A stretch of 64,000 bases of DNA from NCBI RefSeq assembly GCF_015291645.1, contig NZ_CP030055.1:1612001-1676000 (forward strand). The letters are read 5' to 3'. The position numbers and the translations under genes were made by a program. The notes under the pieces are model-generated. The model was not told where the DNA came from. It worked only from the letters and a program-made list of their open reading frames with translations, and ran no database searches. Of the stretch, positions 1 through 7,999 are shown in pieces (position 1 is the first letter of the stretch; each line of letters begins with the position of its first letter). The stretch comes from Bradyrhizobium sp. CCBAU 53340 (GTDB lineage Bacteria > Pseudomonadota > Alphaproteobacteria > Rhizobiales > Xanthobacteraceae).

Positions 1-2022
1 GGCGAGCGCCTTCGGGTTGAAGCGCTCGCGGTCGAAGCGGACCCACTCGATCTGCATCGGCAGCACGTAGCGCGTCGTGACGTCGTCATGCGCCGTCTCG
101 AAGAACGCGATCCACGGCCTGTTGTCGCCGATGTCGCTGAACGGTACGGCCGAGGTCAGCGTCGCCTTGATGTGCTTGGGATTGTGCTCGGGATACCAGC
201 GCGTCCGTGACAAGAATCCCGGCAGCACGTCGCGCTCGAACACGCTGCGCTCGCGGGCGAGCGAGACCCAATTCGAGTTCACCGGCACCACCAGCGTCTC
301 GAATTCCGGCACCGCGCGCGGGATCACCGGCTCGGATTTGTCGCGCTCCTGGAGCTGGAACCAGTAGAAGCCGTAGGGCCCGAGCGTGATCATGTAGGGC
401 AGTTCGCCGATCGCCGGGAAGCGGGTGCGGCCGAGCATCTCCTGCGGGATGCGGTCCTTCCACGGCGACAGATCGAGCTCGGTCGCCTGCGCCGCGCGCG
501 AGAGGTTGGCGACGCAGAGGATCACCTCGTCGCGATATTGCCGGACATAGGCCAGCACCGCGCGGTTTGCCGGGCGGATGAAGGTCATGGTGCCGCGGCC
601 GAAAGCCAGCGTCGACTTGCGCACCGAGATCAGGCGCTTGGTGGCGCTGAGCAGCGAAGACAGGCTGCGCGACTGGGCCTCCACATTGACGGACTCATAG
701 CCGTAGACGGGATCCATGATCAGCGGCGCGTAGAGGCGGGCGGGATCGCAACGCGAGAAGCCGCCATTGCGATCCGGGCTCCACTGCATCGGCGTGCGCA
801 CGCCGTTGCGGTCGCCGAGATAGATGTTGTCGCCCATGCCGATCTCGTCGCCGTAATAGATGATCGGCGTGCCGGGGAATGACAGCAGCAGCGAGTTCAT
901 CAGCTCGATCTTGCGCCGGTCATTGTCCATCAACGGCGCGAGGCGCCGGCGGATGCCGACATTGATGCGGGCGCGGGGATCATTGGCGTAGGTGGTCCAG
1001 AGATAGTCGCGCTCGACGTCGGTGACCATCTCCAGCGTCAGCTCGTCATGGTTGCGCAGGAATAGCGCCCATTGGCAGCTCGCGGGGATATCGGGCGTCT
1101 GGCGCAGGATGTCGGTGATCGGGAAACGGTCTTCCTGCGCGATTGCCATGTAGATGCGCGGCATCAGCGGGAAGTGGTAGGCCATGTGGCATTCGTCGCC
1201 GCGGCCGAAATATTCCTGCACGTCTTCAGGCCATTGATTGGCCTCGGCGAGCAGGAGCTTTCCCTTGGAATAGGCATCCAGCTCCTGGCGCAGGCGCTTG
1301 ATGATCGCATGCGTCTCGGGGAGATTCTCGTTCGAGGTGCCTTCGCGCTCGCAGAGATAGGGAATGGCGTCGAGCCGGAAGCCGTCGACACCGGCGTCGA
1401 GCCAGCGCTTCATCACCTGGATGATGGCACTGACGACGCGCGGATTGTCGAAATTCAGGTCGGGCTGGTGCGAGAAGAAGCGGTGCCAGTAGAATGCGCC
1501 GGCCTCGGGATCCCAGGTCCAGTTCGACTTCTCGGTGTCGGTGAAAATGATCCGCGTGCCCTGGTATTTCTGGTCGGTGTCGCTCCAGACATACCAATTG
1601 CGGGCGCTGGAACCGGCCGGGCTGCGGCGCGCGCGCTTGAACCATTTGTGCTGGTCCGAGGTGTGGTTGACGACGAGCTCGGTGATGACGCGCAAGCCGC
1701 GCTTTTGCGCCTCCTGGATGAAGCGCTTGAAGTCCTTCATCGTCCCGAAATCGGGATTGACCGCGCCGTAATCGCCGATGTCGTAACCGTCGTCGCGGCC
1801 CGGCGATGGATAGAACGGCAGCAGCCACAGCGCGGTGACGCCGAGGTCCTGGAGATAAGGCAGCTTCTCGGTCAGTCCGGCGAAATCGCCGATGCCGTCA
1901 TTGTTGCTGTCGGCAAAGGCCTTGACGTGGAGCTGGTAGATGATGGCGTCCTTGTACCAGAACTCATCCACGATCTCGGCAGCCTCGGCCTTCTTGGTGT
2001 CGACGGAAGACAGTACATTCAT
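1..2022 (-). CDS. treS: Trehalose synthase (TreS), probable maltokinase fusion, 3' end outside window
   Basis: Interconverts maltose and trehalose in the cytoplasm; a C-terminal maltokinase-like part would make maltose 1-phosphate. The N-terminal ~550 residues are a GH13 barrel with all catalytic motifs: FRLDA (nucleophile Asp near residue 218), LLAEANQW (acid/base Glu near 260) and LRNHDE (Asp near 326). Roughly 674 residues lie in the window and the frame is still open at base 1, longer than a plain TreS, with a tail (LPGFLSRTRWYPE) of the type that opens the fused maltokinase domain. The ATG lies 10 bp after the stop of the GlgE-like gene, so the two form an operon; glgB often follows in such loci but would be outside. 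Identity is firm; the fusion is inferred from length and tail. Confidence 0.9.
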   Translation of the reverse strand, partial: MNVLSSVDTKKAEAAEIVDEFWYKDAIIYQLHVKAFADSNNDGIGDFAGLTEKLPYLQDLGVTALWLLPFYPSPGRDDGYDIGDYGAVNPDFGTMKDFKRFIQEAQKRGLRVITELVVNHTSDQHKWFKRARRSPAGSSARNWYVWSDTDQKYQGTRIIFTDTEKSNWTWDPEAGAFYWHRFFSHQPDLNFDNPRVVSAIIQVMKRWLDAGVDGFRLDAIPYLCEREGTSNENLPETHAIIKRLRQELDAYSKGKLLLAEANQWPEDVQEYFGRGDECHMAYHFPLMPRIYMAIAQEDRFPITDILRQTPDIPASCQWALFLRNHDELTLEMVTDVERDYLWTTYANDPRARINVGIRRRLAPLMDNDRRKIELMNSLLLSFPGTPIIYYGDEIGMGDNIYLGDRNGVRTPMQWSPDRNGGFSRCDPARLYAPLIMDPVYGYESVNVEAQSRSLSSLLSATKRLISVRKSTLAFGRGTMTFIRPANRAVLAYVRQYRDEVILCVANLSRAAQATELDLSPWKDRIPQEMLGRTRFPAIGELPYMITLGPYGFYWFQLQERDKSEPVIPRAVPEFETLVVPVNSNWVSLARERSVFERDVLPGFLSRTRWYPEHNPKHIKATLTSAVPFSDIGDNRPWIAFFETAHDDVTTRYVLPMQIEWVRFDRERFNPKALA

Positions 2023-2032
2023 GGCGTGATCC

Positions 2033-3982
2033 TTACGCCAGGCAGCGGAATAGCAGCGCCGGATCGCGGTCGGGATCGATACGCAACCTGATCCCGCCCC
2101 ATTCGATGCGGGACTGTTCGCCTGTCACGAGATTTTCGAGCGAGGTGACGTGGCGGCGTTCGCCGCCGACGTCGATGGTGAGGTCGCCGAGCGACAACCA
2201 GAATTCTCGCACGTGGCGCGAGAGGGCGATGGCCGCGACAATGATGTTGGCTGGTTCGGTTGTCTCCTTCACGAAAGCGATCGTCTCGCCGTCCTCGATG
2301 GCGAGAAAGCGACGCAAATTTGTCGTTTGCTGGAGTGCGGCGTTGTCGTTGCGGATGCGATTGAGCGCGGCAATGTAGGTCTTGATGTTGCCGGGCTTTT
2401 CCCAATCGCGCTGCCTGATCTGGTACTTCTCGGAATCCAGATATTCTTCGCGGCCGGGGATGGCCTCGTGCTCGAGCAGCTCAAAGCCGCTATAGAGGCC
2501 GTAATTCCCTGATAGCATCGCGGCCAGCGCGACGCGCGATTTGAACATCCAGGCTTCGCCGCCCTGGAGATGATAGGGTAGCAGATCAAGCGTGTTGACG
2601 AACAGGTTCGCCCGATAGAAGTCCCGCTCCGGATAGCGCGAGAGCTCGCCGAGATATTGCTCCAGCTCCCACTTCAAGGTGCGCCAGGGGAAATAGCTGA
2701 AGGATTGTGCGAAGCCGAGCTTGGCGAGGCCCTTCATCAGCTTCGGTCGTGCAAAGGTCTTGGAGAACAGGATCACCTCGGGATGCCGCTGCCTGATGTC
2801 GCGGATCAGCCACTCCCAGAACGGAAGCGGTGCGGTGTCGTGATTGTCGATCGCAAAGATGGTGACACCGTGGTCGATCCAGAACAGCATGGCATCTCGG
2901 AAGGCGTTCCACAGCCCGATCCGGTCGACCGAGGCGAAATCGGGGATGACGATATCCGAATAGGGGCCGTCCGCCGTCCGCACCGAACGATCCGGACGCC
3001 ATTTGAACCATTCAGGATGCTGCGCCAGCCAGGGATGATCCGGCGAGCATTGCACGGCGAAATCGAGCGCGATCTCGAGGTCGTATTCGAGGCAGGTCGC
3101 GACCAGCGCGCGGAAATCCTCGATGGTGCCGAGCTCGGGATGCAGCGCATCGTGGCCGCCCTCGGCCGAGCCGATCGCATAGGGCGAGCCGGGCTCGCCT
3201 TCGGTCGCGACCGCCGTGTTGTTGCGGCCCTTCCGGCGGGTGCGGCCGATCGGGTGGATCGGCGTGAAATACAGGACATCAAAGCCCATTGCGGCGATAT
3301 CGGGTACACGCGCGATGCAGTCGCGGAGCGTGCCGTGCTGGCCGGCAACCGCGCTCTGGCTGCGCGGCATCATTTGATACCAGGCACCGAAGCGCGCTTT
3401 GTCGCGGTCGATAACAAGCGGGAAGAGCGGCGAGCGGGTCAGGTCGGGGCGCGCCTGGCTCTCGGCCATGGCCTCGCTCAGCTCAGTCGCCAGCAGCGGC
3501 GTGACATCTCCGCTGCCGAGATAGTCCTCGCATTGCCTGACGATCACGGTCGCGGCGTCCTGTCGCGCGCCATGCGCCTTGGTCAACAGGCCGGCGCCCT
3601 CGATGGCATCGAGCGTGATGTCGCCGCCGTTGAGCTGCTTGCGCTCGACGCCGTGGCGCCAGGTGGCAAATTCGTCGGTCCAGGCTTCGATGGCATAAAC
3701 ATATTGACCTGCTTCGGTCGGCACGAACGTGCCCGACCAGCGGTCATCGCCATGGTGGGTCATGGTCTCGCGCCGCCACTCGCGCTCCTGCTCGCCGCGC
3801 CAGATCAGCGCGGCACTGATTGTGGCATCGCCGCCGCGATAGATGTCGGCCCACACGTCGACCGGCTCGCCCGCAATGCGCTTCACGGCGAAGCGGCCGC
3901 CATCGATCGAGGGATAGACGTCTTCGATCAGGAAAGCGCTGCCTGAAGCGGCACTCTCGACAGTTTGAATTGTCTTGTTCAC
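2033..3982 (-). CDS. GlgE-like GH13 protein (maltosyltransferase family) with lost catalytic residues
   Basis: Clear full-length GlgE relative (about 649 residues): N-terminal IEDVYPSIDGGRFAVKR, then FTPIHPIGRTRRKGRNN, HPELGTIEDFRALV, and the C-terminal SGFELLEHEAIPGREEYL. GlgE transfers maltosyl units from maltose 1-phosphate to alpha-glucan. Here the GH13 R-x-D motif reads FAIDN (A377, nucleophile D379 kept), the acid/base Glu of the usual FLAEAFTRP is Lys (LFSKTFARP, K408), and the NPPKKYQDIYP-type phosphate loop is shortened to DGPYSDIVIP; D466 of NTLDLL is kept. Function is therefore doubtful. GTG at 3982 is chosen because family homology begins there; the frame stays open to an ATG at 4174, but that extension looks non-coding. 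Operon with treS, divergent from malQ. Confidence 0.8.
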   Translation of the reverse strand: MNKTIQTVESAASGSAFLIEDVYPSIDGGRFAVKRIAGEPVDVWADIYRGGDATISAALIWRGEQEREWRRETMTHHGDDRWSGTFVPTEAGQYVYAIEAWTDEFATWRHGVERKQLNGGDITLDAIEGAGLLTKAHGARQDAATVIVRQCEDYLGSGDVTPLLATELSEAMAESQARPDLTRSPLFPLVIDRDKARFGAWYQMMPRSQSAVAGQHGTLRDCIARVPDIAAMGFDVLYFTPIHPIGRTRRKGRNNTAVATEGEPGSPYAIGSAEGGHDALHPELGTIEDFRALVATCLEYDLEIALDFAVQCSPDHPWLAQHPEWFKWRPDRSVRTADGPYSDIVIPDFASVDRIGLWNAFRDAMLFWIDHGVTIFAIDNHDTAPLPFWEWLIRDIRQRHPEVILFSKTFARPKLMKGLAKLGFAQSFSYFPWRTLKWELEQYLGELSRYPERDFYRANLFVNTLDLLPYHLQGGEAWMFKSRVALAAMLSGNYGLYSGFELLEHEAIPGREEYLDSEKYQIRQRDWEKPGNIKTYIAALNRIRNDNAALQQTTNLRRFLAIEDGETIAFVKETTEPANIIVAAIALSRHVREFWLSLGDLTIDVGGERRHVTSLENLVTGEQSRIEWGGIRLRIDPDRDPALLFRCLA

Positions 3983-4186: not shown

Positions 4187-6166
4187 ATGGACCTTTTAGC
4201 TCAAGCCCGGATCAAGGGCGTTCAATCCGAATTCGTCGATGCCCTCGGAAAGCTGCGGGTCACCGCGCCCGAGGCGCTCAAATCCATCCTCGATGCCCTG
4301 CCGGAAAAGCGGGTCTATCGCTTCGTCAGCGGGCCGGTCGTGGTGCGCGCGCTCGGCAATCCCCGCACGGAGCTCGCTTCCATTGGCGCCGCACCGCTGC
4401 ACTGGAAGATCATCGGCAGGGGCCAATTCGGCGGCAAACCCGACGTGATTGCGCAAGGCAATACGCGCGAGCCTGTGATCGCCTGGCCCGCCGGCTTGCC
4501 GCTCGGCTACCACCGGCTGACATTGACCGATGCCGGAGGTGCAAGCGAAGAGGTGCCGATGATCGTGGCGCCCGAACGGGCCTTCGGCGGCGATTTCGAC
4601 CGCGGCTGGCTGCTGGCCGTGCAGCTCTACAGCGTCCGCTCGGACCGCAATTGGGGGATCGGGGATTTCACCGATCTGGCCGGTCTGGTCCGGCTCGCAA
4701 AACAGCTGGGCGCTGACGGTGTCGGGCTCAATCCGCTGCACGTCCTGTTCGATGACCAGCCGGGCGATTGCAGTCCTTATTCGCCCAACAGCCGGCTGTT
4801 TCTCAATCCGCTCTATATTGACGTCGAGGCCATCCCGGAATATTCGGCCGACCTCGTCCCGGACGCGGCCGCGACCGCCGCGCGGCTGCGCGAAGGGGAT
4901 CGTGTCCCGTATGTCGACATGGCGGCGCTGAAATGGCTCGGCCTGCGCGCCGCCTTTGACAGTTTCGTAAAAAGCGCGAGCGGCGTCCGCCGCAACCAGT
5001 TTGATGCATTTCGCGCAGAGCAGGGGCCATTATTGTCCCGCTTCGCCTGCTTCGAGGTGCTGCGCCATCGGTTCGCCGCGCCGTGGTGGGAATGGCCAGC
5101 GGCGTGGCGGCAACCGGACGATGCCAAATGTGCCCAATTGCACAACGGTCCCGACAAGCGCGAGATCGAGTTCGTCGAATTCGCGCAATGGACCGCTGAC
5201 GCGCAATTGCACGCGGCCAAGGAGCTGTCTGCCCAGCTCGGCATGCGCGTCGGCCTCTATCTCGACGTCGCCGTCGGCGTGCAGTCCAACGGCTTCGATG
5301 CCTGGAACGAGCAGACGGCGATCTCCCGCCACCTCGCGGTCGGCGCGCCGCCCGATGTCCTCAACACGGTCGGGCAGGATTGGGGCCTCGCCGGCTTCAA
5401 CGCGGGCGGCCTGGAAGCGCAATCCTTCGTGCCGTTCGCCGACATGCTGGCGGCCTCGATGCGCCATGCCGGCGCTATCAGGCTCGATCACGTGCTGGGC
5501 CTGAAGCGGCTTTATCTGGTGCCGCGCGGCTTCAAGCCCGACAACGGCGCCTATGTGCAGATGCCGCTCGAAGCACTGCTCGCTGCGGTCGTCCGCGAGA
5601 GCGTCACCCACAAATGCATCGTGATCGGCGAAGACCTCGGCACCGTACCGGAAGGTTTTCGCGAGACCATGCAGGATTTCGGCATCTGGTCCTACCTCGT
5701 CATGATGTTCGAGCGCGACGATGCCGGCCATTTCCGCAATGTCGATCATTACCGCCCGAACGCGCTGGTCACGCTGAATACGCACGACCTCTGCACCTAT
5801 GCGGGCTGGCGCTCGTTCAGCGATCTCAGGATGAAGCGTTCGCTCGGGCTCGATCCCGGCGAGGACGACCAGGCGCGCTGGAATGCGCTCGGCGGGCTCG
5901 ACGCGATCTTGCGCCAGAACGGCATTAACGCCAACGATCTCTATTCGGTGCTCAATTTCCTGTCGCGTACGCCGTCGCGGCTGCTCGCGGTGTCGATGGA
6001 GGACCTGCTTGGCGTGATCGACCAGCCCAACATTCCCGGCACGATCGACGAGCATCCGAACTGGCGCCAGCGCCTGCCTGTGGCGCTCGACAAGATCGCC
6101 GCAAAGGTCGATCTGGCGGCCCTGAAGGCCGCGACGCGGGAACGTTCGTTGCACGGCGGGAGTTGA
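4187..6166 (+). CDS. malQ: 4-alpha-glucanotransferase (amylomaltase)
   Basis: Disproportionates malto-oligosaccharides by transferring 4-alpha-glucan segments; cytoplasmic. The 659-residue length is usual for the proteobacterial enzyme with an N-terminal extension before the GH77 barrel. GH77 signatures: the substrate pocket LLAVQLYSVRSDRNWGIGDF and SPYSPNSRLFLNPLYID, nucleophile motif IRLDHVLGLKR, acid/base VIGEDLGTVP, and NTHDL for the third carboxylate. First gene of a plus-strand pair with the GH15 gene 30 bp downstream and divergent from the glgE-like/treS operon. The ATG is the only good start after the spacer. Identity is secure. Confidence 0.93.
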   Translation: MDLLAQARIKGVQSEFVDALGKLRVTAPEALKSILDALPEKRVYRFVSGPVVVRALGNPRTELASIGAAPLHWKIIGRGQFGGKPDVIAQGNTREPVIAWPAGLPLGYHRLTLTDAGGASEEVPMIVAPERAFGGDFDRGWLLAVQLYSVRSDRNWGIGDFTDLAGLVRLAKQLGADGVGLNPLHVLFDDQPGDCSPYSPNSRLFLNPLYIDVEAIPEYSADLVPDAAATAARLREGDRVPYVDMAALKWLGLRAAFDSFVKSASGVRRNQFDAFRAEQGPLLSRFACFEVLRHRFAAPWWEWPAAWRQPDDAKCAQLHNGPDKREIEFVEFAQWTADAQLHAAKELSAQLGMRVGLYLDVAVGVQSNGFDAWNEQTAISRHLAVGAPPDVLNTVGQDWGLAGFNAGGLEAQSFVPFADMLAASMRHAGAIRLDHVLGLKRLYLVPRGFKPDNGAYVQMPLEALLAAVVRESVTHKCIVIGEDLGTVPEGFRETMQDFGIWSYLVMMFERDDAGHFRNVDHYRPNALVTLNTHDLCTYAGWRSFSDLRMKRSLGLDPGEDDQARWNALGGLDAILRQNGINANDLYSVLNFLSRTPSRLLAVSMEDLLGVIDQPNIPGTIDEHPNWRQRLPVALDKIAAKVDLAALKAATRERSLHGGS

Positions 6167-6196: not shown

Positions 6197-7999
6197 TTGT
6201 CGGAGAAAATCGAGGACTATGCGCTGATCGGCGACTGCGAGACGGTGGCGCTGGTCGGGCGCAACGGCTCGATCGACTGGCTGTGCTGGCCGGCCTTCGA
6301 TTCCGATGCCTGTTTTGCCGCCCTCCTCGGGACCAACAGGAACGGCCGCTGGCTGATCGCGCCGAGTGAGGACGCTACTGCGATCTCGCGCCGTTATCTC
6401 GGCGATACCCTGATCCTCGAAACGCGCTTCGAGACGGAAGGCGGCACTGTCGCGCTAGTCGATTTCATGCCGCCGCGCGGTAAGGCCTCCGACGTCGTGC
6501 GGCTGGTGCGTGGCCTCTCGGGCACCGTGAAGATGCGGATGGAGCTCGTGATCCGTTTCGGCTTCGGGGTCGACATTCCCTGGGTGCGGCGGATTGATCA
6601 TTCGCTGCTGGCGGTCGCCGGGCAAGACATGACGGTGCTGCGCACCCCGGTCGAGACGCGCGGCGAGGATCTAACGACGGTTTCCGACTTCGAGGTTCAC
6701 GCCGGCGAGACCGTGCCGTTCGTGCTGACCTATGGTCCTTCGCATCTCGATCCGCCCCAGGCGATCGACCCCGACCTCGCGCTTCAGGAGACCGAAAAAT
6801 TCTGGAAGGAATGGTCCAGCCGTTCCACGCATGACGGCGAATATCGCGATCTCATCATGCGCTCGCTGATCACGCTGAAGGCGCTGACGTTCGGTCCCAC
6901 CGGCGGCATCGTCGCCGCACCGACCACGTCGTTGCCGGAAAAGCTCGGCGGCGCCAGAAATTGGGATTACCGCTTCTGCTGGCTGCGCGATGCCACCTTC
7001 ACGCTGCTGGCGCTGATGAACTCGGGCTATACCGAAGAAGCTTCGGCCTGGCACAATTGGCTCTTGCGCGCCGCGGCCGGCTCGCCCGCCAACATGCAGA
7101 TCATGTACGGCATCTGGGGCCAGCGGCGGCTGCTGGAATGGGAAGCGGGCTGGCTCGACGGCTATGAGGGCGCCCGGCCGGTGCGCGTCGGCAACGCCGC
7201 GCATGCGCAGCTTCAGCTCGACGTCTACGGCGAATTGATCGACGCCTTCCACCAGTCGCGCATGGCCAAACTGAAGCTCGACGACGAGGCGACCTGGGCG
7301 CTGGAATGCGCAGTGCTCAAGCATCTCGCCGAGGTCTGGGACCAGCCCGATCACGGCATCTGGGAGCGGCGTGGCCAGCCCCGGCACTACGTCTTCTCCA
7401 AGGTCATGACCTGGGTCGCCTTCGACCGGGCGATCAAGAGTGCCGAGACCTTCGGCTTCAAGGCGCCGCTGTTGCACTGGCGCACGCTGCGCGAAGCGAT
7501 TCATCGCGACGTCTGCTACAGGGGCTTTGATGCCGAGGAGGGCGCCTTCGTCGAGTCCTACGGCTCGAAGCTGCTCGATGCCAGCGTGCTGCTGCTGCCG
7601 GGGGTCGGCTTTTTGCCCGCGGACGATCCGCGCGTCCGCGGCACAATTGCCGCCGTCGAGAAGCATATAATGCGCGACGGCTTCGTGCTGCGGCACGATC
7701 CGCGCGAGGTCTCCGGGGAGAGGCAGCCCATCGAGGGCGCGTTTCTGGCTTGCACCTTGTGGCTCGCCGACGCCTACGTGCTGTCGGGCAATCTCGACCA
7801 GGCGCAGGTCTTGTTCGACCGCGTGGTCGGCGTCGCTAACGATGTCGGGCTGCTGGCCGAGGAATATGATTCAGGCGCCCGGCGCCAGACCGGAAACTTC
7901 CCGCAGGCGCTGACCCACATCGCCCTGATCAACACCGCGCATAATCTTTCAGCGGCGAGGCAGAAGAGCGAGAAGCCGGCGATGCAGCGCTCGAAGTAA
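6197..7999 (+). CDS. Glycoside hydrolase family 15 protein (glucoamylase/trehalase-like)
   Basis: A (alpha/alpha)6-barrel hydrolase releasing glucose from alpha-glucosides; bacterial members of this length (600 residues) act on trehalose or malto-oligosaccharides. N-terminal IEDYALIGDCETVALVGRNGSIDWLC is the typical opening, GARNWDYRFCWLRDA is the hallmark catalytic segment and LLAEEYD near the C-terminus carries the second conserved acid. Start is a TTG after GGAAGGCA; no in-frame ATG fits the conserved N-terminus. It follows malQ by 30 bp, so both likely belong to one glucan/trehalose breakdown unit. Whether the substrate is trehalose or maltodextrin cannot be told from sequence. Confidence 0.88.
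   Translation: MSEKIEDYALIGDCETVALVGRNGSIDWLCWPAFDSDACFAALLGTNRNGRWLIAPSEDATAISRRYLGDTLILETRFETEGGTVALVDFMPPRGKASDVVRLVRGLSGTVKMRMELVIRFGFGVDIPWVRRIDHSLLAVAGQDMTVLRTPVETRGEDLTTVSDFEVHAGETVPFVLTYGPSHLDPPQAIDPDLALQETEKFWKEWSSRSTHDGEYRDLIMRSLITLKALTFGPTGGIVAAPTTSLPEKLGGARNWDYRFCWLRDATFTLLALMNSGYTEEASAWHNWLLRAAAGSPANMQIMYGIWGQRRLLEWEAGWLDGYEGARPVRVGNAAHAQLQLDVYGELIDAFHQSRMAKLKLDDEATWALECAVLKHLAEVWDQPDHGIWERRGQPRHYVFSKVMTWVAFDRAIKSAETFGFKAPLLHWRTLREAIHRDVCYRGFDAEEGAFVESYGSKLLDASVLLLPGVGFLPADDPRVRGTIAAVEKHIMRDGFVLRHDPREVSGERQPIEGAFLACTLWLADAYVLSGNLDQAQVLFDRVVGVANDVGLLAEEYDSGARRQTGNFPQALTHIALINTAHNLSAARQKSEKPAMQRSK

Follow-up and report, generated by a model that had tools for sequence, protein, structure and literature searches.

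Does a glgE gene that has lost the catalytic acid/base and an active-site arginine of its family still belong to a working glycogen pathway? The question is raised by one gene in the window, the whole 64,000-nucleotide stretch of Bradyrhizobium sp. CCBAU 53340 that was analysed. Clusters of glgE, treS-mak and glgB are usually taken as a working GlgE pathway, and the gene lies in such a setting:

2033..3982, minus strand: glgE of class A, 649 aa, GTG start at 3982, stop at 2035-2033
1..2022, minus strand: treS-mak fusion, first 674 of 1097 residues, running past the left window edge (whole gene L002:8729-12022)
4187..6166, plus strand: malQ (GH77 4-alpha-glucanotransferase), divergent neighbour, PF02446 and TIGR00217 above cut-off
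6197..7999, plus strand: GH15 protein with a trehalase-like N domain (PF00723, PF19291), diverging from glgE

The glgE product is homologous to GlgE across nearly its full length by phmmer and Pfam. S. coelicolor GlgE (3zss/4u2y) matched it with a phmmer E of about 1e-136, and GlgE_dom_N_S (PF11896) scored 171 bits against a cut-off of 25. The top Foldseek match of its AF2 model was 4cn1, S. coelicolor GlgE (E 4.7e-66), and identity to the solved GlgEs in the structure alignments was 35-38%. N/S domain and overall homology thus place the protein in GlgE (GH13_3). The model, made from 32 sequences, had a mean pLDDT of 79.4 and a pTM of 0.81, with 51 residues below pLDDT 50, including the stretches 464-475 and 502-519, which lie close to the active site. 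No other gene of the genome matches GlgE_dom_N_S, so a comparison with a second GlgE, proposed in the first-pass annotation, does not apply.

The treS-mak fusion scored 910 bits for TIGR02456 and 613 bits for TIGR02457, both above cut-off, and its kinase motifs HGDFRLGQ and DFDGHP lie beyond the window, inside G000:C1:1611119-1611193. Downstream of glgE on the same strand are treS-mak, glgB, glgX, treZ and then treY (G000:C1:1602028-1604742), and their spacing suggests that the six genes form one operon. The top NCBIfam matches of the GH15 protein are archaeal trehalases, below cut-off; it could use up trehalose or maltose in this module. The genome also holds a second TreS-like GH13 gene (G000:C1:7681193-7682803; 582 bits, below the TreS cut-off), next to which lies a further GH13 gene.

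Donor-site residues of S. coelicolor GlgE were taken from PMC4526890 and mapped onto the window's protein through the phmmer alignment, in which A377, D379 and K408 face R392, D394 and E423. The protein carries FAIDNHDTAP (A377, D379), LFSKTFARP (K408) and RTADGPYSDIVIP. In S. coelicolor numbering the changes are R392A, H397D and E423K; the phosphate loop is also shorter, having lost N352 and K355. Residues were counted over 187 distinct GlgE proteins, comprising 76 of class A, 93 canonical (class B), 16 of class C and 2 others. The codons concerned are:

2852..2854, minus strand: A377 (R392; -1 subsite Arg lost), A in 76/76 class A versus R in 93/93 canonical
2846..2848, minus strand: D379 (catalytic nucleophile D394, kept), D in 76/76 class A
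2831..2842, minus strand: H381-D382-T383-A384, a new class-A motif (P396, H397, T398, K399)
2759..2761, minus strand: K408 (acid/base E423 to Lys), K in 76/76 class A, E in 93/93 canonical
2948..2974, minus strand: shortened phosphate loop ADGPYSDIV, residues 337-345; N352 and K355 lost, Y357 and D359 kept
2585..2587, minus strand: D466 (D480, kept), D in 76/76 class A
3230..3232, minus strand: K251 (K264, -2 subsite, kept), K in 76/76 class A
2423..2428, minus strand: K519-Y520 (K534 and Y535, -2 subsite, kept), 76/76 each in class A

These residues divide the active site into lost and kept parts. First, the triad of Asp nucleophile, Glu acid/base and Asp stabiliser is incomplete, with D379 and D466 kept and the Glu replaced by K408. 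Secondly, among the phosphate ligands of maltose 1-phosphate (M1P), N352 and K355 are lost, and Y357 is kept in 75/76 and N395 in 76/76 class-A proteins. The first-pass annotation had stated that the loop binds the substrate phosphate; this is right, N352, K355 and Y357 being the contacts given for S. coelicolor GlgE in PMC4526890. The loop is 12 residues long in 93/93 canonical proteins and 8 or 9 in 73 of the 76 class-A proteins, and no class-A loop contains Asn (0/76). The shortening noted at first pass is therefore a cut of 3 or 4 residues in 73 and a lesser one in three, where the loop has 10 residues and reads GPSG[KQ]Y. Third, the -2 maltose subsite is intact: K264, D359, K534 and Y535 are present in 76/76 each and N268 in 69/76. 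D394, N395, D480 and W448 are likewise kept in all 76. The new motif is nearly as constant (H381 and D382 76/76, T383 73/76, A384 75/76). In addition, of 154 positions at least 97% invariant in canonical GlgE, class A keeps 118 at that level; a further 14 agree in their majority residue, 10 are fixed differently and 12 are otherwise variable.

The motifs FAIDN and LFSKTFARP, the shortened loop and the full-length GlgE body, all read at first pass, were confirmed by phmmer, Pfam and motif reading. Local sequencing error, against which orthologues were to be checked for the canonical Glu and Arg, is ruled out: A377 and K408, with D379, H381 and D382, occur in 76/76 class-A proteins. The residues also support the view that this is probably not an ordinary M1P maltosyltransferase. 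An M1P maltosyltransferase that is slow, or that tolerates its substitutions, would agree with the kept nucleophile, D480 and -2 site and with a gene neighbourhood of the GlgE pathway type. We consider it very improbable, since N352, K355, R392, E423 and H397 are all lost, these genomes also carry changes in the kinase's predicted maltose pocket, and mutagenesis at two of the GlgE positions was costly in S. coelicolor. According to PMC5076824, the E423A enzyme is catalytically compromised, yet binds malto-octaose across subsites -2 to +6, and kcat drops 43-fold in H397R. Class-A GlgE would no longer bind the M1P phosphate in the known way, nor carry out normal acid/base chemistry, and very probably has lost M1P transfer.

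A second question is whether the gene is simply decaying. Omega was estimated with the codon model GY+F3X4 from 12 class-A, 12 canonical and 10 class-C sequences. In that order, the values were 0.101, 0.077 and 0.122 for GlgE; 0.128, 0.096 and 0.061 for the kinase domain; 0.021, 0.036 and 0.018 for TreS; and 0.041, 0.070 and 0.042 for GlgB. Thus class-A GlgE and its kinase are slightly less constrained than their canonical counterparts, but are far from neutral. The A377, H381, D382 and K408 codons show synonymous variants and no amino-acid change. Since 165 of the 649 positions are invariant in class A, this fixation is notable, not extraordinary. A pseudogene on its way out would fit the absence of glgE from some lineages, where malQ lay directly beside treS-mak in the 6/6 loci read, and the splitting over two frames of one class-A gene (L074, genome G078) and one canonical gene (L072, G110), each possibly a case of local decay or assembly error. 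This reading is very improbable: class-A omega is close to that of canonical relatives, no class-A row has an internal stop (0/76) and only L074 is short, and the canonical-invariant positions are largely kept, as counted above. The dN/dS check thus bears out the earlier argument that conservation of the protein body speaks against decay. As a homologue under purifying selection whose catalytic residues are lost, class-A GlgE is a candidate pseudoenzyme.

All 76 distinct class-A proteins are from Bradyrhizobium; their records include the labels B. diversitatis, glycinis, agreste, canariense, vignae, nanningense, manausense and guangdongense. Outside the genus 67/67 rows were canonical (7 of the 67 without a genus label). 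The canonical R and E were present in 93/93 class-B rows, 26 of these from Bradyrhizobium. A GlgE match was found in 119 Bradyrhizobium genomes, three being weak matches only, and the 90 GlgE genes read in the genus comprised 53 class A, 22 canonical, 14 class C and 1 class D. A class-wide search for FA-x-DNHD found the motif in 4 of 385 genomes, two of them Bradyrhizobium; the other two matches (L270, L273) are not GlgE. That sample has just two genomes marked as Bradyrhizobium and so says little about the spread of the motif.

Other altered forms were also observed. Class C GlgE (L055-L068, for example L056:6066-8012, and L214 of B. embrapense) keeps R392, D394, E423 and D480 and has an altered phosphate loop, N352H and Y357W, in 16/16; its substrate may be glucan and not M1P. 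In L128 (class E; G365:C1:1342903-1344849), nested among canonical relatives, the nucleophile Asp of GlgE is Lys (FRVKDP) and the Mg ligand Asp322 of the kinase is Gly. L073 (class D; G083), on a long branch, has an altered GlgE with FRADNPQAKP and the loop NPSETCDD, and a kinase with Q310E and E326N.

The maltokinase domain fused to TreS is altered in step with GlgE. Canonical GlgE stands with canonical kinase, and altered with altered, in 150/150 loci. In the maltokinase described in PMC4306142, D305 is the putative base, Q310 and D322 are Mg ligands, and H307 lies in the predicted maltose pocket, where E326 forms a salt bridge with R342. Kinases beside canonical GlgE read HGD-x-HLGQ and D-[FL]-EGE in 78/78 loci. 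Class-A kinases read HGD-x-RLGQ and DFDG-[DNH] in 54/54, so that H307R, E324D and a replaced E326 each occur in 54/54 loci. Class-C kinases have HLGQ with DFDGG in 16/16, and those of L073 and L128 are each altered in their own way. The kinase counts over 71 canonical-invariant positions and the P-loop substitutions exclude rows below 480 aa. Of these positions class A keeps 55, with 3 fixed replacements and 13 variable, and class C keeps 64, with 4 fixed replacements and 3 variable. The ATP/Mg core of class A is present (K149, HGD and Q310 40/40; D322 54/54), as is the P-loop EQSN, with Asn in at least 39/40 and Ser in only 34/40. The residues missing from class A are His307 and Glu326, both in the predicted maltose pocket, and Glu324 in the DFE motif. 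Because the ATP and Mg residues are retained, this kinase is not clearly dead. The class-C P-loop is DQPH in 15/16 and DQPN in 1/16, that is, S136P in 16/16 and N137H in 15/16; in Mtb Mak a change at the equivalent Asn abolished activity and one at the Ser drastically cut it (PMC4306142). TreS has its triad motifs in 74/74 class-A rows.

Fixed new residues and a kept kinase core leave room for a re-tuned enzyme, a tentative alternative to which we give a real but minor share of the probability. The general base would be D382, at H397, and the lost phosphate ligands would be replaced by K408, at E423; the substrate would be another phospho-sugar from the altered kinase, or an unphosphorylated glucan. 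The replacement residues are invariant in 76/76 despite synonymous codon turnover, the nucleophile and D480 are kept, and the class-A kinase combines its ATP/Mg core with H307R and E324D in 54/54 loci. Precedents exist as well: an active GH13 group has an aberrant triad, with His for the stabiliser Asp (PMC5347038), and GlgE is reported to have a side glucanotransferase activity without M1P (PMC7935935). However, joint loss of the acid/base Glu and the -1 subsite Arg is severe, mutation of E423 costs activity in S. coelicolor (PMC5076824), and the substrate is putative. A rewired relay seems to us rather unlikely; in it the R307/D324 kinase would make a different phospho-sugar, and GlgE would use this with the kept nucleophile D379, a base at D382 and a phosphate ligand at K408. 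If true, the relay would be a glucan-building route absent from the literature cited here.

Genomes without glgE bear on the fate of the kinase. In 31 Bradyrhizobium genomes there was no GlgE match or only weak ones; 7 of the 31 were assigned by their absence from the match list, and a few absences may be gaps, since some of the assemblies are below 90% complete. A TreS-fused kinase domain was found in 30 of the 31, in 29 above cut-off. The P-loop EQSN is lost in 29/29 full reads, and the HGD and DFE motifs are altered in 27/29, L242 and L245 being unaltered. One fragment, L269, also with an altered P-loop, was left out of the kinase trees. Of the 71 canonical-invariant positions these kinases keep 46, with no fixed replacements and 25 variable. 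With an omega of 0.095 (12 rows) or 0.120 (8 rows), the domain is still under selection, presumably as a part of TreS. In L240-L268 it is likely a structural pseudokinase domain.

Phylogeny was used to count the changes. GlgE trees were built with the trait columns removed; the first, of 97 rows, was made without the second fragment of L074, L072, 13 further rows and most class-A rows. On the GlgE tree classes A and C form one clade each; in a quick version these two and D group together (SH-aLRT 97). With canonical L194 added, L194 was sister of A (97/98), and an AU test of A+C on that tree gave p 0.062. The TreS+GlgB tree places A, C, D (L073) and E (L128) separately, with 4 changes of GlgE state, and it rejects an A+C clade (p 5e-9); A and C were therefore not treated as one event. 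In the kinase tree, likewise, canonical rows are the neighbours of C, and L194 is that of A. It is L194, a metagenome-assembled genome, that sets A apart from D, and regain there would lower the count of origins. On a TreS tree that includes the GlgE-less genomes (L247 having a short TreS), kinase and GlgE states agree in 61/61 rows, with 7 changes each. A paired test found 4/4 pairs concordant on well-supported branches (p 0.125), and 7 pairs over all branches. The association is thus perfect in the sample, but with few independent pairs the formal test of independent events is small.

A second high-scoring GlgA was also observed (G000:C1:1976539-1977954 in the window's genome), in 20/20 genomes of classes A, C and D and in 2/15 others. 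At 526 bits or more it was present in 12/12 A, 7/7 C, 1/1 D, 0/1 E, 1/8 canonical and 1/6 GlgE-less genomes; at least one GlgA was found in all 35 genomes tested. The second copy may reflect compensation or shared ancestry. Compensation is not claimed, as phylogeny alone could explain the pattern and the GlgE-less genomes mostly lack the copy.

The explanation we favour, at somewhat better than even confidence, is that the M1P relay has been dismantled on both sides and that class-A GlgE is kept as a non-catalytic alpha-glucan- or maltose-binding partner of the TreS/GlgB glycogen-trehalose module. The maltokinase makes M1P and GlgE uses it, and in the class-A lineage the relay would have been lost at both ends. 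Deletion of glgE in other bacteria leads to M1P accumulation (PMC8084333; PMC5042117); M1P use and M1P making should therefore be lost together, which is the pattern seen. Because the -2 maltose pocket and W448, on the acceptor surface, are kept, GlgE most likely persists as a binding partner and would bind glucan in vivo. TreS would still turn trehalose into maltose, which would then pass to the products of the neighbouring malQ and GH15 genes. A B. diazoefficiens treS mutant, cited in PMC8092242 as having more trehalose and less maltose, fits degradation of trehalose to maltose by TreS without need of phosphorylation. Three observations count against the binding-partner explanation: the class-A kinase core is largely kept; H381, D382 and K408 are fixed in 76/76 rather than drifting, which fits new chemistry equally; and the paired test had only 4 pairs on well-supported branches. 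Of the first-pass interpretation, the parts that held were that this is probably not an ordinary enzyme and is not simply decaying, while its suggestions of glucan binding, control of TreS or a new activity are still conjecture; it had overlooked the kinase change, the recurrence in other Bradyrhizobium lineages and the retention of the -2 site.

The textbook GlgE route to glycogen thus probably no longer runs in many Bradyrhizobium, though both proteins are under selection. Given the altered class-A residues, gene presence in this genus is no evidence for a GlgE pathway. For example, PMC8084333 suggests that a desiccation phenotype of B. japonicum may be due to alpha-glucan, its genome having 'a complete glgE operon'. 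Judged from the residues read here, that completeness is in doubt and needs re-examination; the only record labelled B. japonicum among our rows, L165 (strain SZCCT0153), is class A, and USDA 110 is outside the sample. The open-access titles and abstracts searched held no report of a degenerate GlgE in Bradyrhizobium, and a search of the open-access literature for GlgE together with pseudoenzyme found nothing. The repeated two-sided loss of the relay is a natural experiment on M1P toxicity, and also on what GlgE and the Mak domain may do apart from catalysis.

Three known systems can be compared with this locus. S. coelicolor GlgE1 (EC 2.4.99.16, GH13_3) shares the domain layout, the -2 subsite, D394, D480 and W448 with class A, which differs by R392A, H397D, E423K and the shortened phosphate loop. 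The BmaN1 group of GH13 alpha-amylases with an aberrant triad (PMC5347038) is alike in being GH13 with a changed catalytic residue. However, in that group the transition-state stabiliser is changed and activity has been shown, whereas in class-A GlgE the acid/base and the Arg are changed and any activity is putative. Lastly, TreS-Mak (TreS-Pep2) of Estrella lausannensis and P. aeruginosa resembles the class-A protein in its fusion and in its adjacent glgE and glgB (PMC7935935, PMC8084333), and the class-A kinase differs from it in carrying H307R and E324D and in lacking E326 (54/54).
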